In this document: positions 41,538 through 46,012 of the stretch, in pieces
Numbering within the stretch: position 1 is the stretch's first letter
Layout of the letters: each line of letters opens with the position of its first letter
NCBI GenBank assembly: GCA_015055655.1
Contig: SVHW01000004.1
Span: 43,420-107,419 of the forward strand
DNA: 64,000 nt
Source: Clostridiales bacterium
GTDB taxonomy: Bacteria; Bacillota; Clostridia; Christensenellales; Borkfalkiaceae
Direction of reading: 5' to 3'
The notes under the pieces: generated by a model
The model's input: only the letters and a program-made list of their open reading frames with translations
Databases searched by the model: none
What the model was told of the DNA's origin: nothing
Made by a program: the position numbers and the translations under genes

Positions 41538-41864
41538 CCCCATTATTTCTTTTTTCAATGTTTAATCCAGCTTTTAATGGCAAACAAACTCTTATATAAC
41601 GCAGTTATTTATGTTGGAAACGAAGGCATTTTAGCTACGCCAAAGCCTCCTCGCTCGTCGCGCGCTCCCACACCAATTCCCTCCCTCAAACCCCTTCGTG
41701 GGTTCGGCACATACCAAAGAAACGGACACCCAACAGGGTGTCCGTTTCTTTGTCTGTTACGAACGATTCTGCTGTAAAATAGGTTTTAGTACTGACTTGA
41801 ACCCGGCGGGAATATCGTCAACAACAAGGCATCAAAATATTTTATCCCTTCTCCTCTTTACATA
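41538..41864. other. Intergenic segment with no gene seen
   Basis: Apart from the 75-base direct repeat at 41678-41752 and its terminator hairpin, nothing is recognised. The part left of the repeat (GCGCGCTCCCACACC) is GC-rich, and the part right of it falls into AT-rich island sequence. Confidence 0.6.
41678..41752. repeat. 75-base direct repeat, left copy (island boundary)
   Basis: Matches 45855-45929 at 73 of 75 positions (differences at AAACCCC/AAATCCC and GGCACAT/GGTACAT). It includes the complete tRNA-Leu terminator hairpin but not the tRNA. It marks the left edge of the AT-rich island. Confidence 0.9.
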
Positions 41865-43775
41865 TCACCAAACCCCTTGTATCCCTGGAGGGACGTCATC
41901 CTTTGATATTCTCCCCATTTCATATAGTTCACAAATATGAGCAATTTGTAGTTTTCTATTCAGACAATAATCAAATAAAAAGTCGTTATCAATTTGCCCG
42001 CGCCAATCATTTATTTTGATTCTTTCATCGATAATTTCACAACTCCCTATTTGATAGGGAACCTTGAAAATTTCAATCAAGTTATTATATTCAAAAAAAT
42101 GCACCGGATAACGATAATATCCTATTATTTTTGACGCCGTTACGGATCCTGATAAAAACTCTTTGATTTTTGGAAATTTTTCACTTAAATATTCCGTCAT
42201 CTGATCTCGTCCAAAAGGAATGAAAAACTTTGAAATATCCATTAATATTACACTATCTTTCTCGATAATTTCATGTACAAACTGAGAATAAATTACAAAT
42301 TTTATGATTTTTTTGTATTTAATGTTTTTGTATCCTGCTTTCTTAAAAGCCGTTTGAACAAAACTTGGATGCGCCTCATAAAAAGTTGAAATCCGATTTA
42401 TTTGATAAATATCATCATCCATATCATTTACAAAAAATTCATTCGATTTATTTATGTTACGATTCTTACACTCGCAAAGACATAATGTATCGTCAATCAA
42501 AAACGCTACATCACACTCAAACTCTTCACCGTTAAATTTATTATGTAACTTTACCACCGGAAGTCTAAAATATTTTAAAACATCTAATACATGTCTTTCA
42601 AATGTAGCCCCTTTAAAATCAATGCCTCTTTTGTTGCTAAATTTAGACAATAGGACTTTTCCGACATCCATATCTTTTATCATCCAAGGAATAATGAAAT
42701 ACCCCGCTTCACATGGAATAAATGGATTATCATATAGGTCAACCGATTTTTTATCTAAAATCAAAGATATAAACAACTTTTCAGCGTATATAGGTTCAAC
42801 CCCATATTTTACCATTATAGCAATCCACTGGGCACTATTTTGTATCCATATTTTCTTCTTTTTTGAATCCTTTACAAACAGTTTTAATGCAATATACGCC
42901 TTCATCCACTCTATTGCAGGTATGCTGTTTATTTTAATAGAATCTATGTCGCATAAATACTTTTTTTCTAAAAGGAATCGACTATGATCAAATAGATGTT
43001 TTTGACTATTTAAATCTCGCAATACGTCTATTCCTTGAAGCATCCCATAATAAAAATCATATAAGTAATTAATTATAATCTCTTTTAAATTCGTTTGATA
43101 AAAGAACAAAAGCGAATCATCCGATATGGATGAAACTATCCTTTCCCCTTGCATTAAAAATGTTCTATATCCAGCCTTCCATTCTTCGTATTCTTCTTCA
43201 AAAGCACAAGTTATAAATGAATCTTCAATATACTGTTCTGCAATTTTCATTTCGTCATTAAAAAACAACGAAAAATAATTACATTTTTTAAAAAGAAATT
43301 TCCCTCCGTTAAAAATTTGATTATCATAAACTAAACTTTTTAAGGTATTATTTATTAACTCCATTGCTTTATCATAATAGATTACAGCTCTACGCCTCGC
43401 GATTTTTTGTCTTTTTTGTATTGTAGTCAATATAGCATACAATCTATTACGCGGAGAAATTGAGTTAATGTTTTTTTGTAGCTTATAAGATTCCGCAAAA
43501 AGCTTATTTATTATTTTTACTTCTAACAGATATTTCTTGAAATAGTTCGGTAAGTGCTCAAATTTTAATAATTGCTCGACCAAATCAATATCAATATTTG
43601 TTCCGCGGCGGTCAATAAAAAGTTCCGACTTTTTTAGCAGTTTCACTTTTTGCTCATCATTAAACTCTATCAATATTACATCTAAATTGCCAATCAATTC
43701 ACTTATAGATTGCCTATTTTTCTTAAGATTGTTTTCTATTTCTTTAAGAATCTTTTTCTCATCTTTAGTTAACAT
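41865..43775 (-). CDS. Large protein with PD-(D/E)XK nuclease signature, unknown family
   Basis: A 636-residue Lys/Ile-rich protein I do not recognise. The first 150 residues are strongly helical and charged, probably coiled coil. Residues 200-370 look helical with several hydrophobic cores but no convincing membrane segment. A restriction-endonuclease-like core follows: an E393-bearing helix (GATFERHVLDVLKYF), D422 in FECDVAFLID, then E435-C-K437 in LCLCECKN. This E...D...ExK order is the PD-(D/E)XK pattern of Mrr-like and related nucleases. No helicase or methyltransferase is nearby. It is the distal gene of the toxin-antitoxin-chaperone island, so a defence effector role is plausible but inferred. 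Confidence 0.6.
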   Translation of the reverse strand: MLTKDEKKILKEIENNLKKNRQSISELIGNLDVILIEFNDEQKVKLLKKSELFIDRRGTNIDIDLVEQLLKFEHLPNYFKKYLLEVKIINKLFAESYKLQKNINSISPRNRLYAILTTIQKRQKIARRRAVIYYDKAMELINNTLKSLVYDNQIFNGGKFLFKKCNYFSLFFNDEMKIAEQYIEDSFITCAFEEEYEEWKAGYRTFLMQGERIVSSISDDSLLFFYQTNLKEIIINYLYDFYYGMLQGIDVLRDLNSQKHLFDHSRFLLEKKYLCDIDSIKINSIPAIEWMKAYIALKLFVKDSKKKKIWIQNSAQWIAIMVKYGVEPIYAEKLFISLILDKKSVDLYDNPFIPCEAGYFIIPWMIKDMDVGKVLLSKFSNKRGIDFKGATFERHVLDVLKYFRLPVVKLHNKFNGEEFECDVAFLIDDTLCLCECKNRNINKSNEFFVNDMDDDIYQINRISTFYEAHPSFVQTAFKKAGYKNIKYKKIIKFVIYSQFVHEIIEKDSVILMDISKFFIPFGRDQMTEYLSEKFPKIKEFLSGSVTASKIIGYYRYPVHFFEYNNLIEIFKVPYQIGSCEIIDERIKINDWRGQIDNDFLFDYCLNRKLQIAHICELYEMGRISKDDVPPGIQGVW

Positions 43776-43796
43776 ATATTATATTCCTATTAAAAT

Positions 43797-43825
43797 AAAA
43801 TCGGCAAAGTTGACTCGCCGATTTT
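43797..43825 (-). terminator. Hairpin between the SecB-like gene and the nuclease-like gene
   Basis: AAAATCGGC pairs with GCCGATTTT (9 bases, 11-base loop), followed on the minus strand by T-rich sequence. It could partly terminate or attenuate transcription into the downstream 636-codon gene. No clear promoter was found between the two. Confidence 0.7.
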
Positions 43826-43873
43826 GAATGTTGTGATTTATATAAATGTTTTAATTAAAAAATGCAAAGTCCT

Positions 43874-44302
43874 TTAATTTTCAGATTTTTCCCATAACTT
43901 TACTACATTAATCGGCTGTAAAAGAATAGGCATAAGCCCTGGTTGAGTAGTTACTACCGATACTTGAGATCTGATAAATGGAAACATAATAGCAACTGCA
44001 TTATACTTAAATATAGTTATCTTTTCTTCTTCGGACAATGTTGTATTATTCAATTCAAAAATGCCATTCGCAACCACTTTCACAGCAATTTTTTCTTTAT
44101 TTTCATTAATTACAACTGCAATAATAATTTCTCGGGTATTAGGCTCATCATTAAAACCTTTAATTTCTATTTGATAATTAACTGATAAGTCCATCTTTCC
44201 AAGATCGTAAATATTTTTCTTTTGAATACACTCTAAATGTGAAAAATAGATATCTTTCATTTTTAAATCACTTTGTGATTCTTCTGCAATGATTTTTCTC
44301 AT
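43874..44302 (-). CDS. SecB-like chaperone of a toxin-antitoxin-chaperone module
   Basis: A 142-residue protein with the SecB fold pattern: an N-terminal strand (MKDIYFSHLECI), KVVANGIFELNN, then FKYNAVAIMFPFIRSQVSVVTTQPGLMPILLQPINV. The last block corresponds to the SecB segment ending in P-x-l-PPiNv. Stand-alone SecB-like proteins next to toxin-antitoxin genes protect the antitoxin (as Rv1957 does in Mycobacterium). The ORF track start overlaps the antitoxin gene. An AGGAG site overlapping the antitoxin stop points to the ATG at MRKIIAEE; the ATG one codon earlier is an alternative. Gram-positive bacteria normally lack SecB, reinforcing the specialised role. Confidence 0.85.
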   Translation of the reverse strand: MRKIIAEESQSDLKMKDIYFSHLECIQKKNIYDLGKMDLSVNYQIEIKGFNDEPNTREIIIAVVINENKEKIAVKVVANGIFELNNTTLSEEEKITIFKYNAVAIMFPFIRSQVSVVTTQPGLMPILLQPINVVKLWEKSEN

Positions 44303-44312
44303 CATAATCTCC

Positions 44313-44906
44313 TTATATCGCAAACGCAGGCTCTTTTCGAGAAGAGAATTCTCCTTCGGTAAGTCCATAAGAATCATTATAACATGTTGACATATTTGTC
44401 GTTGCTAAAATATTCGAATTAACATTAAACCCTACTGCTATAATTTTTACTACTGCTTTCATCGCCTTCTTAAACGCAGACGCTGTAATTCGTGATTGAT
44501 TTTCTTCCAAGCAATTTTTAAACTCTATTGGATTGTTTAACAACTTTTTTAACACTCTAGAATAACTCGCATTAGCAATCGTTCCACTATAATACCTTTT
44601 TATCGTCGCAACACCACATCCAACTAAAACAGCCAGCGCCTCCAAACTAATTTTATATTTCCCCAAAATTTGACCAATTTCTTCTTGTGTAATTAATCCT
44701 TTTTGAATGCAATATCCTTGTCTAATTCTTTTAAGATTTTCATCTTCTACTTTTGCTACATAAACTCTTCCACCGCAACATTTACATTGCGCAAACTGCT
44801 CTTTATACTTAATAGCCACATCTCTAAACACAAACTCTAAATCTTCTTCATTAAGTATATAGTCAACATAATCGCCACAATTGAGACATATTTCTTTTCT
44901 TTTCAT
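44313..44906 (-). CDS. MqsA/YgiT-type antitoxin with C-terminal extension
   Basis: A 197-residue protein. Residues 1-50 form a YgiT-type zinc finger (CLNCG at 7-10 and C41-K-C-C44). Residues 70-120 form a helix-turn-helix (LITQEEIGQILGKYKISLEALAVLVGC, quoted by parts; recognition region GVATIKRYYSG). This is the MqsA layout, which is about 130 residues in E. coli. Here some 70 more residues follow (SAFKKAMKAVVKIIAVGFNV and beyond). In chaperone-dependent modules such an extension is the chaperone-addiction segment. It lies between the MqsR-like toxin (24-base gap) and the SecB-like gene. It probably autoregulates the operon. Confidence 0.85.
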   Translation of the reverse strand: MKRKEICLNCGDYVDYILNEEDLEFVFRDVAIKYKEQFAQCKCCGGRVYVAKVEDENLKRIRQGYCIQKGLITQEEIGQILGKYKISLEALAVLVGCGVATIKRYYSGTIANASYSRVLKKLLNNPIEFKNCLEENQSRITASAFKKAMKAVVKIIAVGFNVNSNILATTNMSTCYNDSYGLTEGEFSSRKEPAFAI

Positions 44907-44930
44907 TTCCTTTACCTCTCTCTATTTATC

Positions 44931-45380
44931 TTATGCCAACTTATTATAATTCCTATACATGGGATCATTTGGCTCATGTAGAGAAATCAATAAAACCACC
45001 TTTTTATTCCCTTTGATTTGCAATAATTCCATTTTTACATACACATCAACTTTCTCAAATTTAATTCCGTCTTTTGATAAATTTGGAGATATTAAATATA
45101 TGTACATATTCTGTCCATTTCGCAACCGTTCTGGTCTTTCGTCTAATTGTATATCCGCAATATCTTTACTCGTCAAATTCTCCAATAATAATTTTTTTAC
45201 ACCTTCCCACTCCTCAATACCATACTCTAGCCGAAATTTTTTATTTTTTTCTCTTTCAGCACCATCGTCTAATTCTTCTAAAAAAGGAGGTTTTTGTCCG
45301 GATTTCAAAATATTTAAAATTTTTCTAGTTGTATCGTCTATATCTTTTTTAGTAAATTGTTTTAAGATACTTTCAGACAT
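44931..45380 (-). CDS. MqsR-like toxin
   Basis: A 149-residue protein. The C-terminal strand pair VDVYVKMELLQI...KKVVLLISLHE lines up by eye with the VYLKITVIHDVLIVSFK end of MqsR, an mRNA interferase of the RelE/RNase-toxin fold. The preceding GIEEWEGVKKLLLENLTSKDI region also parallels MqsR. Extra residues at the N-terminus and an insertion (YLISPNLSKDGIKF) make it longer than the 98-residue E. coli protein. The MqsA-like gene downstream supports the call. The start is unusual. AAGGAGG serves a 4-codon ORF that overlaps this ATG (MSESILK). The longer ORF start would place the Shine-Dalgarno inside the gene. Confidence 0.72.
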   Translation of the reverse strand: MSESILKQFTKKDIDDTTRKILNILKSGQKPPFLEELDDGAEREKNKKFRLEYGIEEWEGVKKLLLENLTSKDIADIQLDERPERLRNGQNMYIYLISPNLSKDGIKFEKVDVYVKMELLQIKGNKKVVLLISLHEPNDPMYRNYNKLA

Positions 45381-45387
45381 TATCCAT
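45373..45387 (-). CDS. Four-codon leader ORF overlapping the toxin start
   Basis: ATG-GAT-AAT-GTC-TGA begins seven bases after a perfect AAGGAGG and its last codons overlap the toxin ATG in another frame. The toxin itself is 14 bases from that ribosome binding site, so its translation may depend on re-initiation. Could be accidental. Confidence 0.4.
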   Translation of the reverse strand: MDNV

Positions 45388-45419
45388 TTAACTACCTCCT
45401 TATATAATATACCCAAAAT

Positions 45420-45435
45420 CGTATCAAATGATACG
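45420..45435. promoter_or_regulatory. Operator-like palindrome in the toxin-antitoxin leader
   Basis: Perfect 16-base dyad CGTATCA-AA-TGATACG, just downstream of the proximal -10. A third half-site GTATCA lies at 45449-45454. It is a natural site for the MqsA-like antitoxin. Confidence 0.7.
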
Positions 45436-45442
45436 CTTTTAT

Positions 45443-45474
45443 ATTATAGTATCAAAAAAAAACAGAAAAATCAA
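45443..45474 (-). promoter_or_regulatory. Proximal promoter of the toxin-antitoxin-chaperone operon
   Basis: Minus-strand TTGATT (45474-45469) pairs with TACTAT (17-base spacer) or the overlapping TATAAT at 45448-45443 (20-base spacer). Weaker than the distal promoter and next to the operator. Confidence 0.5.
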
Positions 45475-45507
45475 GTCTTTTTTAAAATTTTTATGATATT
45501 TTTTTGA

Positions 45508-45535
45508 ATTATATCACTTAATACTTTTTTGTCAA
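45508..45535 (-). promoter_or_regulatory. Distal promoter of the toxin-antitoxin-chaperone operon
   Basis: Minus-strand TTGACA (45535-45530), 16-base spacer, TGATATAAT (TATAAT 45513-45508). Consensus strength; reads through the proximal promoter and operator toward the toxin gene. Confidence 0.78.
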
Positions 45536-45644
45536 GAGGCTACTGCCAACTTTTTAATCTTTTTTAAATCTAGACTTCCTTAAAGAAACTTTGAGTACCG
45601 ATAGATATTTATCTAAATTCCATTAATGTTTACTAATTTTGTTA

Positions 45645-45673
45645 TATAATAGAATCCCAATAGTATCTATTGG
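45645..45673 (+). promoter_or_regulatory. Promoter and operator-like dyad of a truncated gene
   Basis: TATAAT at 45645-45650 without a good -35, followed by CCAATA-GTATC-TATTGG (45657-45673) over the expected start point, then AAGGAG eight bases before an ATG. Confidence 0.5.
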
Positions 45674-45698
45674 AATAATTATCTAAGGAGTCTTCATT

Positions 45699-45760
45699 AT
45701 GCAACCAAAGTACACAAATGAACAAATCAAAAAATGCTGTTTAGCTTATCGTCGCGGCGC
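45699..45760 (+). pseudogene. 5' remnant of an interrupted gene
   Basis: A well-placed AAGGAG and promoter precede an ATG encoding MQPKYTNEQIKKCCLAYRRGA. That reads like the first helix of a helix-turn-helix or transposase-type protein. At about 45755 the sequence switches to GC-rich hairpin-bearing repeat (GGCGCGCC onward). The open frame continues to 46289 only by crossing that repeat and antisense tRNA-Leu, so the continuation is not coding. It seems that the rest of the gene was deleted or replaced at the island junction. Confidence 0.55.
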
Positions 45761-45854
45761 GCCCCGCTCGACAATTATCAATTGTCGCCTTTGCCTTCAA
45801 ATACTTTGTAATACATACTTACTTTGGCAAAGCGTTTTGCTCTCGCAAAACGGC
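45761..45854. repeat. Hairpin-rich repeat segment beside the tRNA-Leu terminator
   Basis: Contains GACAATT-ATC-AATTGTC (45770-45786), CTTTGGCAAAG, and CGTTTTGC-TCTC-GCAAAACG (45833-45852). It abuts the 75-base repeat. No coding character; the short ORFs here look like translated repeat. Confidence 0.6.
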
Positions 45855-45929
45855 TCCCTCCCTCAAATCCCTTCGTGGGTTCGGTACATACCAAAGAAAC
45901 GGACACCCAACAGGGTGTCCGTTTCTTTG
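45855..45929. repeat. 75-base direct repeat, right copy (island boundary at tRNA-Leu)
   Basis: Partner of 41678-41752 (73/75 identical). It ends inside the CCA of tRNA-Leu, so the repeat comprises the tRNA terminator and flank. TCAAATCCCTTCGT within it is an inverted copy of part of the tRNA T-arm. Confidence 0.9.
45893..45928 (-). terminator. Terminator of tRNA-Leu and the upstream gene run
   Basis: A 16-base stem, AAAGAAACGGACACCC / GGGTGTCCGTTTCTTT, with a 4-base loop directly after the tRNA 3' end. The T-run is within the stem rather than after it. Confidence 0.85.
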
Positions 45930-46012
45930 GTGCGGACGAAGGGATTTGAACCCACACGGTGTTACCCACAGGAACCTGAAACCTGCGCGTCTGCCAATTT
46001 CGCCACGTCCGC
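45928..46012 (-). tRNA. tRNA-Leu (anticodon CAG)
   Basis: Minus-strand cloverleaf of 85 bases: acceptor GCGGACG / CGTCCGC, discriminator A and encoded CCA, a class II long variable arm (GGGTAACACC), T-loop TTCAAAT. The anticodon loop TTCAGGT gives CAG. The stem closes with a T-T mismatch at its base next to the loop (31-39). The gene lies 17 bases after the peptidase E-like gene, so it may be co-transcribed. Confidence 0.93.

Follow-up and report, generated by a model that had tools for sequence, protein, structure and literature searches.

The 64,000-nucleotide stretch of DNA that we analyzed (the window), from contig SVHW01000004.1 of a Clostridiales bacterium of the family Borkfalkiaceae, contains an AT-rich island beside a tRNA-Leu gene. 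The island holds four collinear open reading frames (ORFs) on the minus strand, spanning 41865–45416 in the ORF list. In the direction of transcription, they encode an MqsR-type toxin, an MqsA-type antitoxin, a SecB-like chaperone, and a protein with a PD-(D/E)XK nuclease domain (Table 1). An earlier inspection of the letters alone (the sequence-only reading) had described four collinear AT-rich genes between direct repeats next to tRNA-Leu, and this description holds. The guanine-cytosine (GC) content of the island is 29.8% (about 28–33% for each gene) within a region of 45–48% GC (45% in the left flank and 47.8% in the right flank), and the core of the repeats matches at 73 of 75 positions. 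In relatives, the cargo on the downstream side of this tRNA-Leu is variable (a serine recombinase at locus L069, a tyrosine integrase at L071, and a barnase-barstar pair at L068), so the site is a hot spot for integration. By its composition and its position at the hot spot, the island is foreign DNA that was probably acquired horizontally.

Table 1. Features of the island and its surroundings, in window coordinates.
Feature	Position	Strand	Details
Left direct-repeat copy	41662–41752		Contains a hairpin with a 17-bp stem
PD-(D/E)XK protein, 636 amino acids	41865–43775	minus	Nuclease domain at about residues 385–550; helical N-terminus, low confidence
Intrinsic terminator	43797–43825	minus	12-pair stem and T-rich tail; between the SecB and nuclease genes
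SecB-like TAC chaperone, 143 amino acids	43874–44305	minus	ATG at 44305
MqsA-type antitoxin, 197 amino acids	44313–44906	minus	Cys4 zinc-binding domain, helix-turn-helix, then tail
C-terminal tail of the antitoxin	44313–44480	minus	About residues 143–197 (alignment A7)
MqsR-type toxin	44931–45380	minus	149 amino acids from the ATG at 45380
Perfect palindrome CGTATCATTTGATACG	45420–45435		Between the promoter and the toxin gene
Sigma-70-type promoter	45508–45535	minus	TTGACA-16-TATAAT, extended -10; precedes the TAC operon
Right direct-repeat copy	45839–45929		Abuts the 3' end of tRNA-Leu
tRNA-Leu(CAG)	45928–46012	minus	Integration hot spot in the genus

Direct scans against Pfam, PADLOC, and NCBIfam put no name on the toxin. 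It has no direct Pfam match at E ≤ 1, and so no match to PF15723 above the cut-off. Nevertheless, a profile of the toxin family aligns well with the PF15723-type MqsR loci of the phylum (hhalign probability 98.4%, E = 1e-14), as expected from the MqsR-like toxin of the sequence-only reading. Y126 (in the numbering of the longer, 161-residue ORF that begins with TTG at 45416; the ATG in Table 1 is the likeliest start) occupies the position of the catalytic tyrosine of MqsR, which we take to be equivalent to Tyr81 of the E. coli protein. This tyrosine is invariant in the alignment, as are a neighboring lysine, serine, and histidine. The protein that we compared for Y126 was the MqsR of Bacillus fungorum, with its catalytic tyrosine (PMC10440598). 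Among 249 genomes of the phylum, we found four clear relatives of the toxin (L055–L058), each of which adjoins a gene for an MqsA-type antitoxin; there were none in 301 related genomes. The nearest of these relatives (L055) has a weak match to MqsR_toxin (E = 0.01, below the cut-off). A single-sequence AlphaFold2 model of the toxin was of no use (predicted local distance difference test, or pLDDT, of 42), so its identity rests on the profiles and the gene context. Given homology at the profile level, the catalytic tyrosine position, and an MqsA-type partner, we identify it as a predicted MqsR-type RNase that is strongly diverged.

The antitoxin was likewise recognized correctly as MqsA-like with an extra C-terminus. 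It matches the MqsA family of NCBIfam (TIGR03830) with E = 9.8e-14, although its 51.2 bits are under the cut-off of 61.8, and it retains the zinc-binding cysteines (C7, C10, C41, and C44). It is 31–35% identical to antitoxins that combine a zinc-binding domain (ZBD), a helix-turn-helix (HTH), and a Panacea domain. The antitoxins next to the four toxin relatives have a long C-terminal part, and Pfam finds SocA_Panacea in two of them (L055 and L057) but not in the window antitoxin. Where the Panacea-bearing relatives carry about 190 further residues, the window antitoxin has a tail of about 55 (alignment A7).

The chaperone matches SecB in Pfam (PF02556, E = 2.6e-12), and its 47.3 bits exceed the cut-off of 26, which bears out the SecB-like assignment. 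Its best model in PADLOC is PD-T4-9_C (CmdC), with E = 3.7e-15. The likeliest start codon (Table 1) follows a ribosome-binding site, aggag, and is preferred over a start at 44377; it lies 7 nt from the stop codon of the antitoxin. The SecB-family gene is thus directly 3' of a toxin-antitoxin (TA) pair, with a type II toxin and its cognate antitoxin upstream. Upstream of the three genes, the promoter in Table 1 scores 12 of 12 against the consensus, which is the best in the region, as a consensus match only. The palindrome CGTATCATTTGATACG is a candidate operator for the antitoxin, as judged from the antitoxin's HTH. By homology and gene order, the first three genes make up a full toxin-antitoxin-chaperone (TAC) module, and its kind is already known.

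Three described systems resemble this module. The precedent for MqsRA-SecB is the TAC system of Vibrio cholerae RC385 (Bordes et al. 2016, PMC5105189). Like the window module, it has an MqsR toxin, an MqsA antitoxin with a C-terminal extension, and a dedicated SecB-like chaperone; unlike it, the window module lies on an AT-rich island and its toxin is strongly diverged, and the dependence of its antitoxin tail on the chaperone is a prediction. From this precedent, the tail is a candidate chaperone-addiction (ChAD) region. CmdTAC (PD-T4-9; PMC11618068, PMC9519451) has the same order of toxin, antitoxin, and SecB, and its CmdC, which the window chaperone matches, senses a phage capsid protein (PMC11618068). 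However, the toxin of CmdTAC is an mRNA ADP-ribosyltransferase, so the window toxin, as an MqsR-type RNase, is not a CmdT, and the window antitoxin has the ZBD-HTH architecture instead of being a short CmdA. Finally, MqsR(D2):PanA of Bacillus fungorum shares the toxin type and the ZBD-HTH core of the antitoxin, and the loci of the four toxin relatives have the same layout. In that system, the ZBD of the Panacea antitoxin is sufficient to neutralize MqsR, and it has been proposed that Panacea senses a cue where a ZBD carries out the neutralization (PMC10440598). The window antitoxin lacks Panacea and has a short tail and a separate SecB instead. That the tail and SecB stand in Panacea's place suggests that these are interchangeable sensing parts. 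A natural swap of Panacea for SecB, whose relative in CmdTAC senses capsid protein, would make the proposal of Panacea as a sensor (PMC10440598) testable.

We propose that the antitoxin neutralizes the MqsR-type RNase through its zinc domain and that its HTH also represses the TAC operon. Because of its tail, the antitoxin would be stable only while bound by the SecB-like chaperone. If the chaperone is titrated, by analogy with CmdTAC by newly made capsid protein of a phage, then the antitoxin would be lost and the freed RNase would cut mRNA, so that growth and phage production stop.

We also noticed that the proteins encoded directly 5' of TAC-type SecB genes often (in about 9 of 13 cases) end in Ala-Ala or Val-Ala, like C-terminal degrons of the ClpX type. 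(We read these endings at L045, L047, L052, L083, L085, L087, L089, L093, and L094.) The window antitoxin ends in PAFAI and so lacks such an ending.

The fourth gene encodes the 636-residue protein. As the sequence-only reading had it, the catalytic residues E393, D422, and E435-x-K437 are present. In an AlphaFold2 model built with six sequences, a confident core at about residues 400–500, mostly with pLDDT of 80–94, shows the PD-(D/E)XK order of elements, so the protein has both the E, D, and (D/E)xK residues and the core fold of the superfamily. Over residues 385–550, the structural matches include Cdn1/Can2/Card1, McrC, SduA, and other nucleases, with Z of about 8–10 and a root-mean-square deviation (rmsd) of about 3 Å; the top match is Upx with Z = 11.8, but with an rmsd of 8.5. 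The protein shares the nuclease core fold and the catalytic arrangement with these defense proteins (Can2/Card1/Cdn1, McrC, SduA, and Upx). It differs from them in having no recognized CARF domain and no match to PADLOC at E ≤ 1, and its N-terminus is unlike recognized domains. In the comparison with Upx, Shedu, and the CARF nucleases, what aligns is the nuclease core alone, or else a region with a poor rmsd. NCBIfam and PHROGs yielded no match, and Pfam none above the cut-off: the match to NERD (PF08378) over residues 388–461 is weak (E = 0.063), and its 14.2 bits are below the curated cut-off of 22.1. In the literature searched, Upx and nuclease appear together only in passing mentions.

Relatives of this protein are on plasmids from Exiguobacterium, Erwinia, Klebsiella, Priestia, Agrobacterium, and Lysinibacillus, and in a 2.1-Mb record from Fusobacterium that is labelled as a plasmid. 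Others are in two contigs of a viral collection, in genomes of Desulfosporosinus and Alkalibacillus, and in a contig that was binned into a nanoarchaeal metagenome-assembled genome. At L048 (3856–7035), the relative follows the Gabija genes GajA and GajB (E = 4.8e-298 and 7.3e-233) and a DUF4062 protein, and at L049 (1–7062) it follows genes for PglZ and DrmD. These two contexts suggest that the nuclease and its relatives form a defense family. We found no relative in the 301 related genomes or in phage records, and no real one in a sample of 398 genomes from the phylum (there was one partial match, E = 9.9e-4). We place the protein in an undescribed family of predicted nucleases that is mobile and associated with defense islands, and that elsewhere usually occurs without a TAC module, on plasmids, in prophages, and in phage-defense islands. 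Because its active site is intact, because it recurs in these places, and because it has no family name, it is a candidate single-gene defense protein, and it probably cleaves invading nucleic acid on its own.

We considered whether the 636-residue protein might instead lack nuclease function and be a mere passenger, either inert or with a housekeeping role. No activity is known for it and it matches no curated family, NERD included. But E393, D422, E435, K437, and Q458 are unchanged across several phyla at just 16–29% identity (R461 is also invariant in the alignments of the relatives), and the family is repeatedly associated with mobile elements and defense genes. This makes a passenger very improbable. 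The sequence-only reading had named mutated nuclease residues as an outcome that would undo it; the residues are intact and invariant across the relatives.

We propose that the island carries two functionally separate units of defense or stability, namely the TAC module and, beside it, the separate undescribed nuclease. We put the probability of this at about 0.72. Several points weigh against it. Terminators permit read-through, and the four genes lie on one strand and are alike in composition. The closest relative of the nuclease (L047; 39% identity over 232 residues, ending at the edge of the contig) has a TAC-type SecB, 33% identical to the window SecB, at a distance of 2.1 kb. The tail of the antitoxin has no recognizable ChAD sequence; ChAD sequences have no significant similarity to one another (PMC5105189), so homology cannot decide whether the tail is one. 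The model of the nuclease is unreliable outside of the core (mean pLDDT of 56.6). And across all four genes, toxicity, chaperone dependence, the phage trigger, and nuclease activity are what we infer.

The L047 locus, the strand, composition, and island that the genes have in common, and the intact catalytic residues favor a single four-gene system, as the sequence-only reading had proposed. In such a system, the TAC module would sense phage and the PD-(D/E)XK protein would be a second effector or sensor under the control of SecB or the antitoxin; once SecB is occupied or the antitoxin is lost, both the RNase and the DNA nuclease would be licensed. L047 speaks for it, if weakly, as a likely antitoxin, of which the contig holds the last 33 residues, is encoded upstream of the SecB there. 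L047 would then carry the nuclease and the TAC module in a rearranged form, which we find quite doubtful: its SecB is on the opposite strand from the nuclease relative, beyond a tRNA-Ile and a gene for a 434-residue protein. In the window, the 98 nt between the SecB and nuclease genes hold an intrinsic terminator. We built profiles for the toxin, the antitoxin, SecB, and the nuclease and scanned 12 neighborhoods of nuclease relatives with them. SecB was present in just one (L047), and none had a match to the toxin or the antitoxin. Conversely, 12 other TAC-type SecB loci had no relative of the nuclease in the flanks that we read (1.5 kb only for loci from whole genomes). In this sample, recurrence of homologs of the 636-residue protein beside MqsRA-SecB, the check that the sequence-only reading had suggested, was limited to the SecB of L047. 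Because of the terminator, the 11 neighborhoods without SecB, and the 12 SecB loci without the nuclease, the four-gene claim is not supported. Independent cargo at a hot spot accounts for all of the neighborhood data; the sample is small and leaves coupling at low odds.

At L047, the 434-residue protein (1348–2652) is encoded directly 3' of the nuclease relative and belongs to no recognized family. It is missing from the window island.

We also considered that the TAC module might only maintain the island, by addiction, with the nuclease as the sole defense cargo. Type II TA modules often stabilize islands, the flanking repeats could excise this one, and TA genes of other types (PemK/Phd, RelE/MqsA, and HipA) are close to relatives of the nuclease. 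However, the nearest match of the window SecB is CmdC, for which phage sensing has been proven (PMC11618068). Also, no integrase is among the island's ORFs, so that excision would depend on one acting in trans. Overall, we view maintenance alone as unlikely, and we retain the proposal of two separate units.

The island has flanking direct repeats, foreign composition, and a tRNA site, as integrative islands do, but neither an integrase of its own nor an att core within the 3' end of the tRNA. The repeats are 90% identical across 91 bases, and at full length they are confined to these two sites in the 1.38-Mb genome. We considered a classic att duplication of the tRNA's 3' end and dropped it because the repeats share only the final two bases of the tRNA. 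Furthermore, a segment of 31–39 bases from the repeat is also present at other places in the same genome and in the genus. The two repeats may therefore represent a dispersed element and not a scar of integration.

Viral scans with single-protein queries for the toxin or the antitoxin, with the SecB pair A5, or with the nuclease pair A4 gave no match. A sequence search of the PDB gave no relative of the toxin, the antitoxin, the chaperone, or the nuclease.

Other TAC-type SecBs related to the window chaperone come from genomes of the same phylum and from contigs labelled as phage, and they accompany genes that are ADP-ribosyltransferase-like, HigBA-like, or GNAT (the ADP-ribosyltransferase and HigB assignments were made by eye). 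The chaperone is thus a shared part that is combined with many toxins. In a genome from the same class, L091 (1444–2876, minus strand) has a GNAT protein (Pfam E = 7.9e-7) as the candidate toxin, a 143-residue protein, and SecB, and is possibly an acetyltransferase TAC.

SecB matches were found in 125 of the 301 related genomes. We rejected these as TAC chaperones because nearly all that we inspected are a different SecB (MKYALRGITAEEL...), mostly present once per genome. This separate, solitary SecB occurs about once per genome across much of the genus and family (most of L014–L043), including in the genome studied here (L092, 1444–1869).

On the 3' side of the tRNA-Leu, the DNA folds back: first comes a hairpin with a 19-bp stem, and after it a part of this tRNA's T-arm in inverted orientation (TCAAATCCCTTCGT). 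In the predicted fold of the 174-nt RNA (45839–46012), the 3' half of the tRNA pairs with this mirror of the T-arm (-81 kcal/mol). Portions of the fold-back element are found elsewhere in the genus.

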